36,162 nucleotides of DNA from Candidatus Woesearchaeota archaeon (lineage in GTDB: Archaea > Nanobdellota > Nanobdellia > Woesearchaeales > GW2011-AR9), in contig JACRPH010000055.1 of assembly GCA_016214025.1 (NCBI GenBank), forward strand, positions 1 to 36,162. The letters run 5' to 3'. A program made the translations under genes and the position numbers. Below, in pieces: positions 29,441 to 36,162 of this stretch (positions within the stretch are counted from its first letter, which is position 1; each line of letters begins with the position of its first letter). The notes below the pieces were generated by a model. The model ran no database searches. It had not been told where the DNA came from and saw nothing but the letters and a program-made list of their open reading frames with translations.

Positions 29441-29596
29441 ATGGAAGAAAGTAAAAACATCACATTGAAAGTTAATTCCAAATTGTATGATGAATACAGA
29501 GAAGTATGCAAGAAAGAGGGTTGGATAGTTTCTCGTCAGTTTGAAAAGTTAATGGAAGCAGAACTAGAGAAGAGGGGGCGGGAAAATGTCAAATAA
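29441..29596 (+). CDS. small ribbon-helix-helix-like protein
   Basis: The 51-aa ORF is too short for the ORF track. It reads a strand [20 protein letters not shown] then a helix [16 protein letters not shown], the beta-alpha-alpha layout of ribbon-helix-helix DNA-binding proteins. An in-frame ATG at 29435 adds two residues. Its 3' end overlaps the hsdM stub by 11 bp, so it is the first gene of the broken restriction operon and may have regulated it. Confidence 0.7.
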
Positions 29597-29753
29597 CGGC
29601 GCTAATTTAGGGTTTGAACAAAAATTATGGTCTTCTGCTGATAAGCTAAGAAGCAATATGGATGCTGCTGAATATAAGCACGTTGTTTTAGGATTGATTT
29701 TCTTAAAATATATTTCTGATGCTTTCACAGAAGTTTATGAAAAATTAAGGTGA
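29586..29753 (+). pseudogene. 5' stub of type I restriction methylase hsdM
   Basis: The 55-codon ORF reads [18 protein letters not shown], then [20 protein letters not shown] and [11 protein letters not shown] before TGA. This is the classical N-terminus of HsdM, the N6-adenine methylase of type I systems, normally about 500 aa. The SAM-binding and NPPF motifs are absent, so no methylase can be made. The next ORF starts 3 bp later, implying a clean deletion of the rest. It could be a sequencing or assembly deletion, but the later hsdS stub suggests real decay. Confidence 0.85.
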
Positions 29754-29756
29754 ATA

Positions 29757-30152
29757 ATGGAAAAATACGAAAAGATTCAAAAAGAAAATATTAAACTGCT
29801 TAACAAATTTGAAGAATACTTATTACAGAAGAACCTCAGTAAAAAAACAATAAAACGCCATATTAACAATGTAGAATTGTATATTAACGACTATCTGGCA
29901 ATAGATGAAGAAGAAAGCCCGCAGGAGATTGATGGATACACTTTAGAGTCTTTTTTCGGCTGGTGCATTGATAAATGGATATTTAACACAGTATCAGGAC
30001 TGCTTTCTATGATTATTAGTGTAGATATATTTTATGAATATCTCAACGAAAATAAACCGATAGCGCATATTGATGAAATTCGGAAAGTCTGCGCAAATAA
30101 AGAATATTATACCAAAAAATTCAAGAGCCATGAAAGGCTTCTGGACATGTGA
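29757..30152 (+). CDS. SAM-like integrase N-terminal-domain protein
   Basis: The 131-aa protein has a segment resembling the core-binding (phage integrase SAM-like) domain of tyrosine recombinases: LLNKFEEYLLQKNLSKKTIKRHINNVELYINDYL. The catalytic domain with the Arg and Tyr residues is missing. A lone DNA-binding domain might regulate, or this may be a remnant. It lies between hsdM and hsdS stubs, where some type I loci carry a recombinase. The family assignment is moderate. Confidence 0.6.
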   Translation: MEKYEKIQKENIKLLNKFEEYLLQKNLSKKTIKRHINNVELYINDYLAIDEEESPQEIDGYTLESFFGWCIDKWIFNTVSGLLSMIISVDIFYEYLNENKPIAHIDEIRKVCANKEYYTKKFKSHERLLDM

Positions 30153-30155
30153 GCT

Positions 30156-30332
30156 ATGAAACAAGAAACAAAATTCAAACAAACTGAAATAGGAAGAATT
30201 CCTGAAAATTGGGAAATGAAAAAGAGAACGTTCCACATGAAACACAATGAAGAAATGAACTGCAACCAATGTAATAAAATAATCTCTGCACACATAAAGA
30301 ATAAACTCAAAGAGGATCTAGAAAGTGAATAA
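30156..30332 (+). pseudogene. hsdS 5' stub fused to a short CxxC tail
   Basis: The 58-codon ORF begins MKQETKFKQTEIGRIPENWE, the standard start of a type I specificity subunit (HsdS, normally about 400 aa), then changes to an unrelated segment with CNQCNKIISAH, possibly part of a zinc finger. No target-recognition domain remains. Its stop overlaps the GTG start of the TPR gene. It supports the reading that a type I restriction locus was replaced here. Confidence 0.7.
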
Positions 30333-31347
30333 AGAAAATTTATACCATAAAGGCGCGGAACTGTACGAAAGAGAAAAATTTGCAGATGCCATAATTGTTT
30401 TATTAGAAGCTTATGCGAAAGACCAGGAGGATGTTGATACAATAATATTGCTGGCGGGATGTTATATCAATATTGCTCATTTTACTGAAGCTGCAAAGTG
30501 GCTTTTCGTTGCCAATGAAATTGATGCTAATAATCCTCTGATTAAATACAATTTAGGTTACGCACTCCTTTGTATGGGCAGGCTTAGCGATGCAATGAAG
30601 TGCATGAACGAATGCCTCGGGCTAAATCCACCATTCGAAATAAAGAAAATGACAAAAAGAATGTTGAAATCGGAAGAATATTTTACCAAAAAGCTAGAAA
30701 ACAATTATAATATTTCGTTGGAAGAAGAATTTGAATGCGAAGAGAAATTTTGTAAAGCACAAGAATATCTCTATACAAAACGATTTGAAGAAGCTATCGC
30801 TCTCTATAAATTTATCCTGGAAAAGAAGCCAAATTTTCATCGAGCCATTCAAAATATTGGCGTTTGTTATATTGAACAAGGAAAGCCGAAAGAGGCGCTA
30901 AACTATTTTGAAAATGCTTTAAGTATTTCACCAACAGATGATCTTTGCTTAGGAAATATTGCTCATGCCAATTATTTATTAGGTAATTTAGAAAAATCAA
31001 GAGAATATTCTGAAAAAGCTATGAATGCAGTAAAAGATCCTTTACTTAGAGACTTGATACGTTTAATAACTTTATTTATTAAAATAGAACAATTTGAATT
31101 TGCAAGGAAACTTCTTACCAGCTATAGCGATGCCCATGATAATGCCCAACTAACATTCTTATCCGGGGTGGTATATGCAAAACAAAAAGATTATCTCGCT
31201 GCAAAAGGGGAGTTCCAGATTATTAGAAAACACTCAAAAACTGCAAGGGAATATTTGGAAGAAACTAAACAGCTGATAGAAGGCAGAATTAAGAAATTCG
31301 ATTTTGAGCCTAAAATGCCTGTTGATGCAAGTGAGGACATGATTTAG
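30325..31347 (+). CDS. TPR-repeat protein
   Basis: The 340-aa soluble protein has tandem tetratricopeptide repeats: KGAELYEREKFADAIIVLLEAY, CYINIAHFTEAAKWLFVANEI and LGYALLCMGRLSDAMKCMNEC in the first half, and AIQNIGVCYIEQGKPKEALNYFENAL and LGNIAHANYLLGNLEKSREYSEKAM later. TPRs are protein-binding scaffolds. The GTG start has AGAGGAT about 9 bp upstream and overlaps the hsdS stub. It leads the coupled gene series that follows and may be the sensor or scaffold of that system. Confidence 0.85.
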   Translation: MNKENLYHKGAELYEREKFADAIIVLLEAYAKDQEDVDTIILLAGCYINIAHFTEAAKWLFVANEIDANNPLIKYNLGYALLCMGRLSDAMKCMNECLGLNPPFEIKKMTKRMLKSEEYFTKKLENNYNISLEEEFECEEKFCKAQEYLYTKRFEEAIALYKFILEKKPNFHRAIQNIGVCYIEQGKPKEALNYFENALSISPTDDLCLGNIAHANYLLGNLEKSREYSEKAMNAVKDPLLRDLIRLITLFIKIEQFEFARKLLTSYSDAHDNAQLTFLSGVVYAKQKDYLAAKGEFQIIRKHSKTAREYLEETKQLIEGRIKKFDFEPKMPVDASEDMI

Positions 31348-31373
31348 TCGTTATTTAAAAATTGGAGGTAAAA

Positions 31374-31799
31374 ATGGCGGAGAAACAATATACCCTAAAA
31401 GAACAACAAAAGATAAAGAAATATCACGACTTATTCAATGCCAAGAATGAACTCCATAACCTGCTTAGAAGAGTAGTTGTTTCCACAAAACTTGGAACTC
31501 AAGAAAAACAGCCGGATGATGATATTGAACTAGATATTGGTAATGGTAGTCTAGGCTCTTGTGGAAAATACGAGCAAGTAAGATATTTTCCCACAGGGTT
31601 GTTTACTGAGCATCAATTAGATGATGATTTAGAAATGATAAATTATCTGATAACAGAAATAAAACAGCGATTTCAAGCATTTAGAAAAGCAAGAGACTCT
31701 AACCCCTTAGATCATATAAAAGGAAAAAAGAAATTTGCCAAGCAGTTCTTTGATCTGCCATTACATAAAATAAAAGAAAAATATGGTGGTGGAAAATGA
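31374..31799 (+). CDS. hypothetical protein, 141 aa
   Basis: I do not recognise this protein. A strong GGAGGT 5 bp before the ATG at 31374 selects that start over the ORF-track one at 31362. It is charged and mostly helical, with a central GNGSLGSCGKYEQVRYF segment and a helix DDDLEMINYLITEIKQRFQAFRKA. Its stop overlaps the start of the next gene (ATGA), a sign of joint production. It has no membrane segment or catalytic motif. Confidence 0.68.
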   Translation: MAEKQYTLKEQQKIKKYHDLFNAKNELHNLLRRVVVSTKLGTQEKQPDDDIELDIGNGSLGSCGKYEQVRYFPTGLFTEHQLDDDLEMINYLITEIKQRFQAFRKARDSNPLDHIKGKKKFAKQFFDLPLHKIKEKYGGGK

Positions 31800-32254
31800 A
31801 AGATACGACTAAAAAACGAATTCAACAAAAAATAATCGCCACTTATGTACCATTAAGAGAACTGATTTTTGAGGACAATGGAAGAGAAGTTAATGTTGTA
31901 AAAGATTTTACCGATTATTCTCCGGTTTTGGCGAGTGTTGAGCTTATTATCTATAGTTTTACGAAGGCAAATCAAAATATTTATGATCAAGATATATTAA
32001 ATGCCCTAAAAAGGATAAGAAGAAACCCCCTGCAAGAATTTTCACGATCGGAAGAGGATGCCTTAGCCTTTGCTATCCAGTATGGGATAAGCAGGGGACT
32101 CCAGCAAAAGAGGCTTGCTATCAACGAGATTCATGCTCTGCTTGACTGGCTGATTCATGAGGTAGAGGGAAGAATGCAGAAAAATGAAAATTATATTGAA
32201 TGGTTAGGAGAGTTTTTTAGAGATAACCCATTGAAAACATTTAATGGTGATTAA
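31796..32254 (+). CDS. hypothetical protein, 152 aa
   Basis: This is an unrecognised soluble helical protein. It starts in the stop of the preceding gene. Notable parts are a basic N-terminus (KDTTKKRIQQKI), a helical core ending AFAIQYGISRGLQQKRLAINEIHALLDWLI, and an acidic tail ending DNPLKTFNGD. The size and helical build would fit a small adaptor within a multi-gene system. It overlaps the following ORF-track start, but the better start there is two bases after this stop. Confidence 0.68.
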   Translation: MKDTTKKRIQQKIIATYVPLRELIFEDNGREVNVVKDFTDYSPVLASVELIIYSFTKANQNIYDQDILNALKRIRRNPLQEFSRSEEDALAFAIQYGISRGLQQKRLAINEIHALLDWLIHEVEGRMQKNENYIEWLGEFFRDNPLKTFNGD

Positions 32255-32255
32255 A

Positions 32256-32594
32256 ATGGTCAAAAAAGACTTTATTGGCAAATGGCGCATCACTAAGATG
32301 GGCGCTTGGGATAAAGAGTATTTTGACGAAGAAGTGCCAGCTTACATTAAGATAGAAAAAAATCTTATGGGAAACTTCCACTTTGGCTATGTCCAAGGAG
32401 AGATAGATGGCAGGGTTGTCAAACGTGGCGGCGATGAATTTCTTGAATTTACATTTGATGGAAATGACTATGGCGGTGGTGATGACGTTTCAGGAAGTGG
32501 TTGGATGAAATTAAAAGGTAAAAATAACGCAGAAGGGGAGATTAAATTTCATTTAGGTGATGACTCCACATTCCAACTAAGGAGGATGAAATAA
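32256..32594 (+). CDS. small beta-rich protein of the GKWRITxMxxWD type
   Basis: The 112-aa protein starts at the ATG preceded by GGTGA. The pattern KDFIGKWRITKMGAWDKEYFDEE, then FHFGYVQGEIDGR and GSGWMKLKGKNNAEGEIKFH, suggests a small beta-barrel. I recall widespread uncharacterised bacterial proteins with the same pattern, of unknown function. Its gene ends in GGAGGATGAAATAATG, which supplies the ribosome-binding site and start for the next gene. The C-terminal strand reads STFQLRRMK. Confidence 0.7.
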   Translation: MVKKDFIGKWRITKMGAWDKEYFDEEVPAYIKIEKNLMGNFHFGYVQGEIDGRVVKRGGDEFLEFTFDGNDYGGGDDVSGSGWMKLKGKNNAEGEIKFHLGDDSTFQLRRMK

Positions 32595-33565
32595 TGAAAG
32601 ATGACATTTTGCTGGAATTGTATGACTATTGTGAGAAAAAATACAGTAAAAAAGAGATGACCGACTACCTAAACAAATTAGGGGAAAAAATTCCTTACCA
32701 CATTGAAGGTATTGATCAAGATAATTTCATTCGTAACTTTATGGATTGGTTTGTACTAGAAAGAGTAATGCCTGAAACTGGAAAAAGATTAACCGAATCC
32801 TATGTTGAAGAACATCCCGAACTGGATGAAGAAACAAAACAAAAAATTCTTAACACTAAAAATATCCTTGCCACAGAATTTGTAGTGATTGCCAAAGACG
32901 GCTTGAATCTAAAACTGAAAGACAGGAAAAATGGGAATTATTATCTCGTTGTACAAGTTTCCAACAATCCACAAATCCAAGCGAACACAATGATTTTAGG
33001 AAGAATTTTTCCGTGGGGACAGATCTACCGCTTTGCTGGCGTGATGGCTTTGGCGCATACTCCAATGATACTCGACCCAGACATTATGATGCACCATTAC
33101 GAAAAAAAAGAGATAGAGCGTGCAGAAAGCATCATCCTCTCCCCATCAACTAAACTTACTGCGGTTCTGAACAAATATCCATCTCAGTGGGTTGATGGAA
33201 TTTGCGAATCTCTTTTGATAGAAACGGGCGGAAGAAAGAATGAAAAAGTAAAAAATATTGCAGATAAGCTTGTAGCCGACCTCCCCGTAATTATAAGCAG
33301 ACTACCTGAAAAGTCAAAAGAAGCTTTAAAGTTCATATTACAAAATGGCGGTTATGTCAAATATAATCTGCTCAAAGACTATGATGATGAAATTTCCTGG
33401 TGGTGGAACAATCACCCTCCAAAATCAACTATTGGTTTACTAAGGTTGTACGGTTTAATAGTTGTAGGAAAAATGCCGCAAGGTACAAAGTTATTCAAGA
33501 CAGCATTAATTCCTAAGGATATAAACGAAGAACTGAAGATGTCGGTTGGTTCTTTTTTGAGGTAG
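32594..33565 (+). CDS. hypothetical protein, 323 aa
   Basis: This is an unrecognised soluble protein, the largest unknown of the operon. It begins with a helical region (LLELYDYCEKKYSKKEMTDYLNKLG), continues with a mixed part (LNLKLKDRKNGNYYLVVQVS, then PWGQIYRFAGVMALAHTP), and ends with a helical part that could be a winged helix (SKEALKFILQNGGYVKYNLLKDY ... TIGLLRLYGLIVVGKM). The start shares a base with the upstream stop and is preceded by GGAGGA. A C-terminal DNA- or protein-binding domain is plausible. Confidence 0.7.
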   Translation: MKDDILLELYDYCEKKYSKKEMTDYLNKLGEKIPYHIEGIDQDNFIRNFMDWFVLERVMPETGKRLTESYVEEHPELDEETKQKILNTKNILATEFVVIAKDGLNLKLKDRKNGNYYLVVQVSNNPQIQANTMILGRIFPWGQIYRFAGVMALAHTPMILDPDIMMHHYEKKEIERAESIILSPSTKLTAVLNKYPSQWVDGICESLLIETGGRKNEKVKNIADKLVADLPVIISRLPEKSKEALKFILQNGGYVKYNLLKDYDDEISWWWNNHPPKSTIGLLRLYGLIVVGKMPQGTKLFKTALIPKDINEELKMSVGSFLR

Positions 33566-33570
33566 AAAAA

Positions 33571-33855
33571 ATGAAAAAAGAAGTTGAATCATTTTCAACA
33601 ATAGGACACTTAATAAGGGCCTATAGCAAAAACATAATCGGGGAAGTTGTTGATGAAGTTTATTTTTTTGATGGACGTAGTAGGCACTCACTCCAGAAAA
33701 TCCAGTCCGAAATAGATAAAAACAGCTACTTTTATATCTTCCAGGTACACGATATGAAAAAAGAGCATATTAGTCCAGTAATACCCCCCATTTTTCCAGA
33801 GCATATTTTAAGCGAGCTATTAAAAAAAGCCAAAGAAAGGAAGTGGGGGATATGA
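33571..33855 (+). CDS. small hypothetical protein, 94 aa
   Basis: The protein is unrecognised. It lies 5 bp after the 323-aa gene and its stop overlaps the start of the DUF488 gene (ATGA), so it is part of the same operon. A central EVVDEVYFFDGRSRHS segment and a C-terminal basic helix (ILSELLKKAKERK) are visible, with VIPPIFPEH between them. It may be an adaptor for the DUF488 protein; that is inferred from coupling only. Confidence 0.65.
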   Translation: MKKEVESFSTIGHLIRAYSKNIIGEVVDEVYFFDGRSRHSLQKIQSEIDKNSYFYIFQVHDMKKEHISPVIPPIFPEHILSELLKKAKERKWGI

Positions 33856-34697
33856 AACTCTTCAACCGCCATAAAGTGTTACTGAACACCATTGAATCGT
33901 TAAATAACCAGAATATCCACTCCCGTATAGCGATAGTTAAATCTCTCTTCCTATTAAAAGAAGAGCATAACTTTAGTGAAAAAACACCATTTTACCATTT
34001 CTTTGCCTATAAGCAAGGACCATTTTCCCATCTCTGTTTTGATGATTTGAGAAAGTTAAGAGACAACAATTTGGTTGACCAAGAAGAAACAACCATCACA
34101 AAAGCAGGAGAAACAGTATTAAAAGAAGTAAGAAGAGAGCACAACCAGACCATAACAACCAGGTTAAAATCGTTTCCAAATGAAAAGAAAATTACCGATT
34201 ATGTCTATCAAAAATATCCGCAATACACTGTAAAAAGTGAATTAATAACGCAGAAACCAAAGAAAATAGAGCCGGGATTTTTCACCATAGGATATGAAAA
34301 GAAGGATATAGACCAATTTCTCAACGCATTAGTAAGCAACCAGATAGAACTCTTAATTGACATCAGAAGAAATCCGTTTAGCATGAACTTTATTTATATT
34401 AAAGATGCTTTGATGAAGAAGTTGAAAGATGCGGGTATTGATTATCTTCATATCCCTGAATTAGGAATTGAAAGCGAAGAGCGGAAAAACCTCAATACCC
34501 CAGCAGATTATGATAAATTATTCGCAAAATATAGGGAAACTCTCCCCATCAAAGAAGTTTATATCAACAGAATTATTGAGTTGGGAACAACCAAGAGAAT
34601 CGCTCTCTTATGCTTTGAAGCAGACTGCAACTTTTGCCATAGGGGAGAAGTAGCTAAAGTTATTAAAAGCAGGGAACATGAGGTAATAAACTTATGA
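33852..34697 (+). CDS. winged-helix-like and DUF488 fusion protein
   Basis: The 281-aa protein is counted from the ATG at 33852; the track start is an in-frame GTG. The C-terminal half is a clear DUF488 domain: FFTIGYEKKDIDQFLNAL, LIDIRRNPFSMN, a LHIPELGI segment and the closing CFEADCNFCHRGEVAKVI, whose Cys and CHR residues are the family signature. The first 110 residues resemble a winged helix (AYKQGPFSHLCFDDLRKLRDNNLV). Ordinary DUF488 proteins are 120-180 aa and lack this part. DUF488 function is unestablished; conserved Cys, His and Arg suggest an enzyme. It shares an ATGA with the next gene. Confidence 0.82.
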   Translation: MKLFNRHKVLLNTIESLNNQNIHSRIAIVKSLFLLKEEHNFSEKTPFYHFFAYKQGPFSHLCFDDLRKLRDNNLVDQEETTITKAGETVLKEVRREHNQTITTRLKSFPNEKKITDYVYQKYPQYTVKSELITQKPKKIEPGFFTIGYEKKDIDQFLNALVSNQIELLIDIRRNPFSMNFIYIKDALMKKLKDAGIDYLHIPELGIESEERKNLNTPADYDKLFAKYRETLPIKEVYINRIIELGTTKRIALLCFEADCNFCHRGEVAKVIKSREHEVINL

Positions 34698-35488
34698 CTG
34701 AAATAGCATCATTTTGGCTGAAAGAGATGGTGGTGTTGGGACAGGGAGCTCTTAACCAAGCAAGAAAACTAAAAGGCAGGCAGGGAAGGTGCTTATGTTT
34801 ATGGTCAGAAAAGACCGGGTTTGTAAGAGTTTTCCCAGTACCGCCTGGTTATGTCCATGACTGGGAGATTATTAATGTCGAAGTTAGAAAGCCGAATGAT
34901 GATGGTCGAGAAAATACTTTTGTTATTAACCAATATGAAGAAGAATTTGACAATTTGTCAAAAAGAATATACGCACAAAAAGAAATAACAAAAAAAGGAA
35001 CTAAGAAGAATAAAGAGCTAAAACGACCAGAAAAAATCGCCCTACTTGAGAATATTTCAAAATCAACCTTCTCTCAAATCAGAGATAATAATAAAAGCTT
35101 TGGTCTTATAAAGCCAACGAATATGAAATTCTTACTTATGAGAAAAAAAGAAATTTCTGAGGCTCAGACTACACTTGCAGAACAAGAATATGATATTATG
35201 AATCCAGACGACTTTGCTTTTACTCCATACTTACAATACGACTGCGTAGGCCCATGTAGCTCAAAACATCCTCATCAACAACAGATTGTGTCTTGGGAAG
35301 CATATCAATTTATGAAACAAAATCCAAATTCCGAAGAACATTGTATGAGATTGAAAGATAATTATGGGATAGAAAAAGAAAATTGGCTACATTACCTCTT
35401 GATTGGAAATCTAAAGCATAAACCTTATACATACGTGATTGTAAAATTAATCCGATTTAAAATTGAAGAAGAAAACGTCCCAGAATAA
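34694..35488 (+). CDS. hypothetical DUF488-partner protein with Cys/His site
   Basis: The 264-aa soluble protein starts in the DUF488 stop codon. The N-terminus has LWSEKTGFVRVFPVPPGYVHDWEI, the middle is a Lys-rich linker, and the C-terminal part has YDCVGPCSSKHPHQQQIVSWEAYQF, where two Cys and two His could hold a metal, followed by a strand (PYTYVIVKLIRFKIE). I know of no characterised function. Strict coupling to DUF488 suggests a two-protein enzyme acting on a nucleic-acid or nucleotide substrate; that is inference. It is the last gene of the operon. Confidence 0.72.
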   Translation: MTEIASFWLKEMVVLGQGALNQARKLKGRQGRCLCLWSEKTGFVRVFPVPPGYVHDWEIINVEVRKPNDDGRENTFVINQYEEEFDNLSKRIYAQKEITKKGTKKNKELKRPEKIALLENISKSTFSQIRDNNKSFGLIKPTNMKFLLMRKKEISEAQTTLAEQEYDIMNPDDFAFTPYLQYDCVGPCSSKHPHQQQIVSWEAYQFMKQNPNSEEHCMRLKDNYGIEKENWLHYLLIGNLKHKPYTYVIVKLIRFKIEEENVPE

Positions 35489-35521: not shown

Positions 35522-36073
35522 ATGAAAATAACTATTTTAGGCGGCAAGAATGAAATCGGCGGAAATAAGATATTAGTTGAACACAAAACCACCAAGCTCC
35601 TCTTAGACTTCGGCATGTCTTTCTCCCAAGCCGGCAAATTCTTCTCGGAATTCCTCCAGCCCAGGAAATGCGCTTCCATACCCGATTTAATCGAACTAAA
35701 CCTTCTTCCAGACTTAAAAGGACTTTATCGCAACGATTACTTAAAACACATGGGAAGAAAAGAAGAAAAGCGTGAGTTCGACGCTCTTCTCATCTCCCAC
35801 GCCCACGCTGACCATGTTCAATATCTACACTTCTTAAGAAATGATATTCCGAGCTATTGCACCAAGCCCACTAAAATCATTCTGCAAGCTTTAGAAGAAA
35901 TAGGTGCAAACACTTTCTCAGATTTAGTCACTACTGTAGAAACTTTCCAATTCAGAATAAACTCCAAAGGCGGTCTATCTAGAGTAACCAGAAGAGATGT
36001 TGAATACGTTAAAGAAAGACCTTGTCAAAACGTTGCGAGCGCCCTACCGCCGGTCACAGACCGGACGGCATGA
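35522..36073 (+). CDS. truncated metallo-beta-lactamase RNase J-like protein
   Basis: From the ATG at 35522 (the track start is a TTG 21 bp earlier) the 183-aa product starts MKITILGGKNEIGGNKILVE and has LLISHAHADHVQYLHFLRND, the HxHxDH metal site of the MBL fold, as in archaeal RNase J-like or beta-CASP nucleases. Family members run to about 400 aa or more. Here the recognisable protein stops at VEYVKERP, after which translation reads through a GC-rich palindrome to TGA. The remaining MBL metal ligands and any beta-CASP domain are absent, so it is inactive or the sequence is rearranged here. Confidence 0.75.
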   Translation: MKITILGGKNEIGGNKILVEHKTTKLLLDFGMSFSQAGKFFSEFLQPRKCASIPDLIELNLLPDLKGLYRNDYLKHMGRKEEKREFDALLISHAHADHVQYLHFLRNDIPSYCTKPTKIILQALEEIGANTFSDLVTTVETFQFRINSKGGLSRVTRRDVEYVKERPCQNVASALPPVTDRTA

Positions 36074-36084
36074 CGGGCGCTCGC
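36035..36084. repeat. GC-rich nested palindrome truncating the MBL gene
   Basis: The outer arms GCGAGCGCCC and GGGCGCTCGC are a perfect 10-bp inverted repeat. Inside, CCGGTC-ACA-GACCGG forms a second perfect 6-bp stem that extends by three pairs past one bulged A. The 50 bp are about 70% GC in an AT-rich region. It could be a small mobile element, an attachment-like site, or an assembly chimera. Confidence 0.75.
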
Positions 36085-36162
36085 CGGATTAATAAGCAAA
36101 ACTGCCCAATGTTTTCTGCCCCAACTTCTTTATTCCTAATGCCCCATATTTCTGATTTTTTA
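36085..36162 (-). CDS. possible partial coding region at window end
   Basis: On the minus strand these 78 bases are open in one frame and read like protein (SEIWGIRNKEVGAENIGQF). One plus-strand frame is also open. If real, it would be an internal part of a gene running into the palindrome. No family is recognised, and this is weak evidence. Confidence 0.25.

Follow-up and report, generated by a model that had tools for sequence, protein, structure and literature searches.

Do the eight tightly packed genes near the end of a woesearchaeal contig form a single system, or do they only lie next to one another? The DNA analysed here (the window) is 36,162 nucleotides long (JACRPH010000055.1, Candidatus Woesearchaeota archaeon) and makes up one contig (C44) in a genome of 1.43 Mb. 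The relatives of the window belong to the DPANN archaea, and the named homologous records come mostly from Woesearchaeota and Nanoarchaeota. A first-pass annotation had described eight co-directional, tightly coupled open reading frames (ORFs) at 30325-35488 and read them as one new system. The ORF list and a reading of the sequence confirmed that these ORFs, genes 1–8, are present, all on the + strand. When they were compared with other genomes, we found that the stretch is best described, on sequence grounds, as two unrelated units lying end to end, a conserved pair made up of genes 7 and 8 and a swapped-in block of six passenger genes. The earlier observation was largely correct; the eight-gene interpretation was not.

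Genes 7 and 8 as a PDC-M19 pair

Gene 7 matched the PADLOC profile PDC-M19A (PDLC04505) end to end (1e-73, residues 4-276) and the full profile of phrog_14939 (4.7e-39, residues 5-272). The DUF488 label that the first-pass annotation had given it was right, as was the TPR label of gene 1, and the Pfam model (PF04343) was matched at 6e-23, with 82.2 bits against a cut-off of 22.2. An alignment of 11 sequences revealed that D170, R172, C254, E256 and C262-H263-R264 were invariant in all of them (D-x-R and C-x-E-x5-CHR). The match of gene 7 to SocA/Panacea (PF13274) stayed below the cut-off (16.6 against 25.7 bits); a weak Panacea match recurred in five of six relatives, the best with an E value of 0.0035. 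The model of the DUF488-N3a subclade was also below its cut-off (E 6e-4), and a sequence search of solved structures with genes 7 and 8 gave nothing useful.

Gene 8 alone had no match in Pfam, NCBIfam or PADLOC, whose M19B profiles missed it at E values up to 10, and it therefore looked new. Comparison at the family level gave a different picture. The gene 8 family aligned with relatives of PDC-M19B over 225 columns (hhalign probability 99.6%, E 4.9e-24), a hidden Markov model built from M19B proteins found the window's gene 8 at 1.6e-12, and eight of nine family members matched PDC-M19B (best 8e-13). Furthermore, phrog_25907 was matched both by gene 8 (4.9e-18) and by bacterial M19B, and the neighbour of more distant gene 7 homologues was PDC-M19B. 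With M19A, M19B and their adjacency all found, we assign genes 7 and 8 to PDC-M19 as a new, divergent member of this catalogued candidate defence family. PADLOC would probably miss the window's copy, gene 8 being too divergent.

Among 23 members of the gene 8 family, C33, R45, P48, D70, R72, W201 and G238 were invariant. The metal site proposed earlier for gene 8 was only partly conserved in the wider family, since C184 and H194 were kept in 20 and 17 of 23 relatives, but C188 and C217 in only 8 and 7. As the second cysteine, C188, is so rarely kept, a family-wide metal site was rejected. Relatives of M19B matched DuOB (PF22557) weakly (E 0.0019), and gene 8 itself did not match it.

The linkage of the two genes was then followed across genomes (L, G and C are our handles for loci, genomes and contigs). 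The DUF488 gene adjoined the partner gene in 23 of 28 loci, the window and 22 others, from Woesearchaeota to Streptomyces. Some lineages have the two genes in a co-directional arrangement and others in a convergent one, showing that the linkage survives rearrangement. Partner genes were found in genomes of Woesearchaeota, Nanoarchaeota and Altiarchaeales, and on plasmids of Sulfolobales, haloarchaea, cyanobacteria, Actinomycetota and Proteobacteria. The N-terminal part of the DUF488 gene varied, being Panacea-like in the window, ParB in Haloquadratum and Saccharolobus and, as read from sequence, HTH-like in Streptomyces and an AbrB-like stretch in L040 and L052. The ParB-DUF488 fusions lie on plasmids beside a gene 8 homologue (L057:9001-10173, L060:3945-4994). 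The dN/dS ratio of gene 7 against the same genus was about 0.08 and that of both pair genes was at most about 0.1, so the pair is under strong purifying selection. In a further Woesearchaeota genome, a copy of the pair next to genes for ribosomal proteins is frameshifted and decaying (L041/L054:1423-3119).

A scan of viral sequences with the gene 8 alignment found two viral contigs. On one viral contig (L088:3792-5742, IMGVR_UViG_3300027320_000248) a gene 8 relative directly precedes a ParB-like DUF4326 fusion, the ParB part being recognized by eye. In addition, the temperate Gordonia phage Nymphadora carries a PDC-M19-like pair as genes 42-43 (NC_031061.1 33833-35130, L094:5968-7265). Gene 43, the partner, overlaps the end of the immunity repressor gene, and gene 42, a DUF488 gene despite its annotation as a HipA toxin, converges on gene 43 and lies beside the integrase. 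Prophages commonly express the genes that occupy this position in the lysogeny cassette, and a role in protecting the lysogen would fit this.

The boundary at gene 7 and the passenger block

The junctions of the eight genes comprise four overlaps and three gaps: a 26 bp gap before gene 2 (ATG at 31374), a 4 bp ATGA overlap of genes 2 and 3, a 1 bp gap before gene 4 (ATG at 32256), a 1 bp overlap of genes 4 and 5, a 5 bp gap between genes 5 and 6, a 4 bp overlap of genes 6 and 7 (ATG of gene 7 at 33852) and a 4 bp ATGA overlap of genes 7 and 8. Such spacing makes co-transcription plausible and is what speaks for all eight genes acting as one coupled defence or nucleic-acid-modification system. 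Within the genus, the locus was found in just one further genome, G001 (L047), and comparison with it revealed a sharp boundary within this run. The DNA of this relative can be aligned with the window as far as 29586, and the match (blastn) resumes at 33852, the ATG of gene 7; both loci are flanked by an ORF of 162-166 aa to the left and by a gene for a beta-CASP ribonuclease to the right. In place of the window's insert, L047 carries 3005 bp with an 893-aa type IIG restriction-modification (RM) enzyme (PADLOC 3.5e-123) and a 71-aa ORF. Moreover, genes 1–6 were absent from all 27 other loci with a gene 8 homologue, and genes 3–5 recur without the pair. The recurrence survey that the first-pass annotation had itself named as decisive did not find the eight genes together elsewhere. 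The absence of genes 1–6 elsewhere and the homology boundary at the gene 7 ATG refute the eight genes as a conserved system, and we regard a single eight-gene system as very improbable. Its proposed TPR scaffold and adaptors acting with DUF488 were unsupported. Coordinates are collected in Table 1.

Table 1. Features of the eight-gene stretch and of the DNA preceding it in the window.
Feature	Position	Strand	Evidence or relatives
Variable insert, 4265 bp (type I RM scar and genes 1–6)	29587..33851	none	blastn against L047
Type I RM scar: hsdM N-fragment, truncated recombinase, hsdS start joined to Cys-rich fragment	29586..30332	+	
Gene 1, TPR protein, passenger outside the pair	30325..31347	+	TPR_19 1e-21
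Gene 2, small protein, passenger	31374..31799	+	no family match (Pfam, NCBIfam, PADLOC, PHROG)
Gene 3, first gene of the recurring gene 3–5 cassette	31796..32254	+	remnant in G015; gene 3-like domain in L080
Gene 4, small family, cassette member	32256..32594	+	homologues in L083, L080 and bacterial plasmids
Gene 5, 323-aa protein, cassette member	32594..33565	+	homologues in three genomes of the order
Gene 6, 94-aa protein, passenger, overlaps gene 7 start	33571..33855	+	no match (Pfam, NCBIfam, PADLOC, PHROG)
Gene 7, PDC-M19A: helical N-terminal domain (Panacea/SocA-like, weak) fused to DUF488	33852..34697	+	PADLOC, Pfam, PHROG
Gene 8, divergent PDC-M19B / DuOB-like partner	34694..35488	+	hhalign, PHROG, relatives

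The decayed type I restriction locus noted upstream was confirmed. It consists of an hsdM N-terminal fragment (29586-29753, 36% to Haloquadratum HsdM), a truncated tyrosine recombinase (29757-30152) of which a family search found only the SAM-like N-domain left, and an hsdS-like start of about 23 codons from 30156; hsdS and the Cys-rich fusion were read by eye from the sequence. The strong Shine-Dalgarno (SD) motifs, in contrast, proved not to be unlike those of the host, as had been claimed. Equally good motifs precede host genes that overlap or abut their predecessor (3196 GGAG, 6030 GAGGT, 12978 GGTGAT, 19681 and 26139 GGAGGTG). The SD motif therefore marks an operon-internal position, and its use as a mark of foreign origin was rejected. 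Another contig of the window's genome contains a type IIG RM-like gene (G000:C65:1968-2447, an 898-aa frame) of about the length of that in L047. At the right end of the window (36021-36100), the homology of the beta-CASP ribonuclease ORF to its relative stops at 36021 and the ORF enters a GC-rich palindrome near the contig end, either a mobile element end or an assembly artefact.

Genes 3, 4 and 5 form a loose recurring cassette of their own, because genes 4 and 5 with a gene 3 remnant recur without genes 7 and 8. Their copies in another genus (L083) show about 79% DNA identity and have other neighbours, and the pair was absent from the loci carrying genes 3–5. The remnant of gene 3 in G015 is 70-87% identical, and a gene 3-like domain adjoins the gene 4 homologue in L080. 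Homologues of gene 4 were 74% (L083) and 49% (L080) identical and also occurred in 11 plasmid records, including cyanobacteria. Those of gene 5, at 80%, 50% and 44% in three other genomes of the order, were never near a DUF488/partner pair; they include copies in L084 and L085, the former with a TPR gene nearby and with a Cys-rich ORF that resembles the window's scar fragment. Viral scans for genes 4 and 5 and a plasmid search for gene 5 found none. A possible weak relative of gene 2 lies beside genes 4 and 5 in the other genus (L083 10821-11177, 26%, E 9e-4 in a search against nine proteins only). Sequence comparison marks the gene 3 domain as a putative undescribed domain family. It also forms the C-terminal part of longer proteins (L080:958-2265, L082:1489-2352, L079:688-2322), and in two of these it is preceded by a domain like that of the L083 SEC-C protein.

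Proposed role of the pair and competing explanations

The idea that the last two genes serve in defence was upheld in so far as they match a catalogued phage-defence candidate and lie near RM genes in several genomes; defence itself is still inferred. Type IIG restriction enzymes were found within 5 kb of the pair in L047, L048 and L040, together with an HTH regulator and an HKD/SNF2 helicase in L048, and the Haloquadratum plasmid carries DNA methyltransferases, HsdS and a DUF262 protein near its pair. Strong Eco57I-type genes numbered about 34 in 148 genomes of the phylum, roughly one per 4-5 Mb. A type IIG RM gene near 3 of about 11 archaeal loci is thus far more than chance would give (well under 1% per locus), a rough estimate because the contigs are short.

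How might the pair act? Burroughs and Aravind (2023) are said to have grouped RapZ-C, DUF488 and DUF4326 and to have predicted DNA-end processing in conflict systems. The conserved motifs of gene 7 and the DUF4326 sister domain point to DUF488 as a thiol enzyme of the rhodanese-phosphatase kind; DUF4326 has been placed in the rhodanese-phosphatase superfamily, with ribose phosphates as its predicted substrates (PMC9503650). We propose that gene 7 would be a cysteine-dependent rhodanese/phosphatase-type enzyme acting on phosphate or sugar groups at nucleic-acid ends or on nucleotides, and that gene 8 would be an OB-fold-like nucleic-acid-binding partner presenting the substrate. Targeting or control would come from the N-terminal domain of gene 7, which is exchangeable (Panacea-like in the window and ParB, HTH or AbrB-like elsewhere), and the purpose would be to protect the carrier, whether cell, plasmid or prophage, from invading DNA. 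Genes 1–6 would be passengers that came with, or replaced, the type I restriction locus. Taken as a whole, a PDC-M19 pair of a cysteine enzyme and an OB-fold-like partner in antiviral processing of nucleic-acid ends or nucleotides, preceded by unrelated passengers, has in our judgement an even chance of being right.

Several observations weigh against this proposal. The structure model of gene 7 (predicted local distance difference test, pLDDT, 76) matched best to tetrapyrrole-methylase-type Rossmann folds (E 0.011, none below 0.001). The AlphaFold2 model of gene 8 was poor (pLDDT 57), and its fold matches are therefore only suggestive; the best in Foldseek were mostly OB-fold binders of single-stranded DNA (LEF-3, Cdc13/Stn1, RPA, Rim1), all non-significant (E at least 0.29). 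Together with the weak DuOB match, they indicate that the gene 8 family partner is probably an OB-fold protein. The partner stands without a DUF488 neighbour in pSOG2 and Natronococcus. Four archaeal loci (L049-L052) lie near ordinary genes, L050 beside MoxR/vWA genes, and the flanks fetched for them contained no recognisable restriction gene, so context alone is not proof of defence. A literature search turned up no mention of PDC-M19 or DuOB in the papers that it covered, and no demonstrated activity of a PDC-M19 pair. The PDC candidates come from a guilt-by-embedding approach, and most of them are still to be tested (PMC12988326).

The copies among housekeeping genes, the low dN/dS and the presence of DUF488 relatives in E. 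coli, found in a control search, would also suit a host tool for repair or nucleotide salvage, whose spread and RM neighbours reflect only horizontal transfer into islands. We consider this rather unlikely, given the patchy distribution (the full-length gene 7 type occurs in about 5 of 371 phylum genomes), carriage by plasmids and phage, and RM proximity. A toxin–antitoxin or addiction module, with a DUF488 toxin held by the Panacea-like domain or by gene 8 and stabilising plasmids, prophages and islands, is suggested by the antitoxin nature of Panacea and its recurring weak match, by the pairs common on plasmids and the one in a prophage-type cassette, and by the HipA-type toxin guessed by the Nymphadora annotators. 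It seems unlikely to us, as the Panacea match is below cut-off even at its best, the conserved enzyme motif is unlike known toxins, and many pairs lack a Panacea-like domain and are convergent, unlike the one-operon arrangement of toxin–antitoxin pairs. The pair could belong instead to the mobile elements themselves as a counter-defence or partition/regulatory device, to which the ParB-DUF488 fusions beside the partner on archaeal plasmids and the DUF4326 version in L088 would be suited. Yet chromosomal copies without nearby mobile genes are kept under selection, and the phage copy lies in the lysogeny cassette and not among early lytic genes, making such a device a poor prospect. Extending the defence proposal to PDC-M19 at large, it is conceivable, if doubtful, that PDC-M19 is a widespread two-gene antiviral system of archaea, bacteria and prophages. 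The ends of invading DNA would then be chemically capped or trimmed by a DUF488/DUF4326-clade thiol enzyme, with the dual-OB partner holding the strand and the exchangeable domain setting when and where the system acts.

Relation to known systems

These results replace a vague eight-gene claim with a precise, testable two-gene unit, and join groups kept separate in the libraries used, namely PDC-M19 of PADLOC, PHROG 14939 and 25907, and the archaeal ParB-DUF488 fusions. With the copy in the Gordonia phage, which lies between the genes for immunity repressor and integrase, a candidate defence family can be tested conveniently in the laboratory. DNA-end processing by DUF488 enzymes, if true, would be unusual chemistry in prokaryotic immunity.

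Compared with the catalogued PDC-M19 (M19A plus M19B), the window's pair agrees in the end-to-end M19A match of gene 7, the profile match of the gene 8 family to M19B and the adjacency of the genes, and differs in that its gene 8 lies beyond the PADLOC M19B profiles. Within the RapZ-C/DUF488/DUF4326 grouping, gene 7 shares the invariant C, CHR and D-x-R of DUF488, whereas the DUF488-N3a model is not reached. Gene 8 is homologous to the M19B relatives that match DuOB, the dual OB-containing domain, weakly, but is itself unmatched. A DUF488-HTH fusion protein has been found to bind CTP in work on archaeal ParB-DUF488 fusions (PMC12704722). Like the window's pair, these fusions on Haloquadratum and Saccharolobus plasmids place DUF488 beside a gene 8 homologue; the N-terminus of gene 7, in contrast, is Panacea-like and not ParB.

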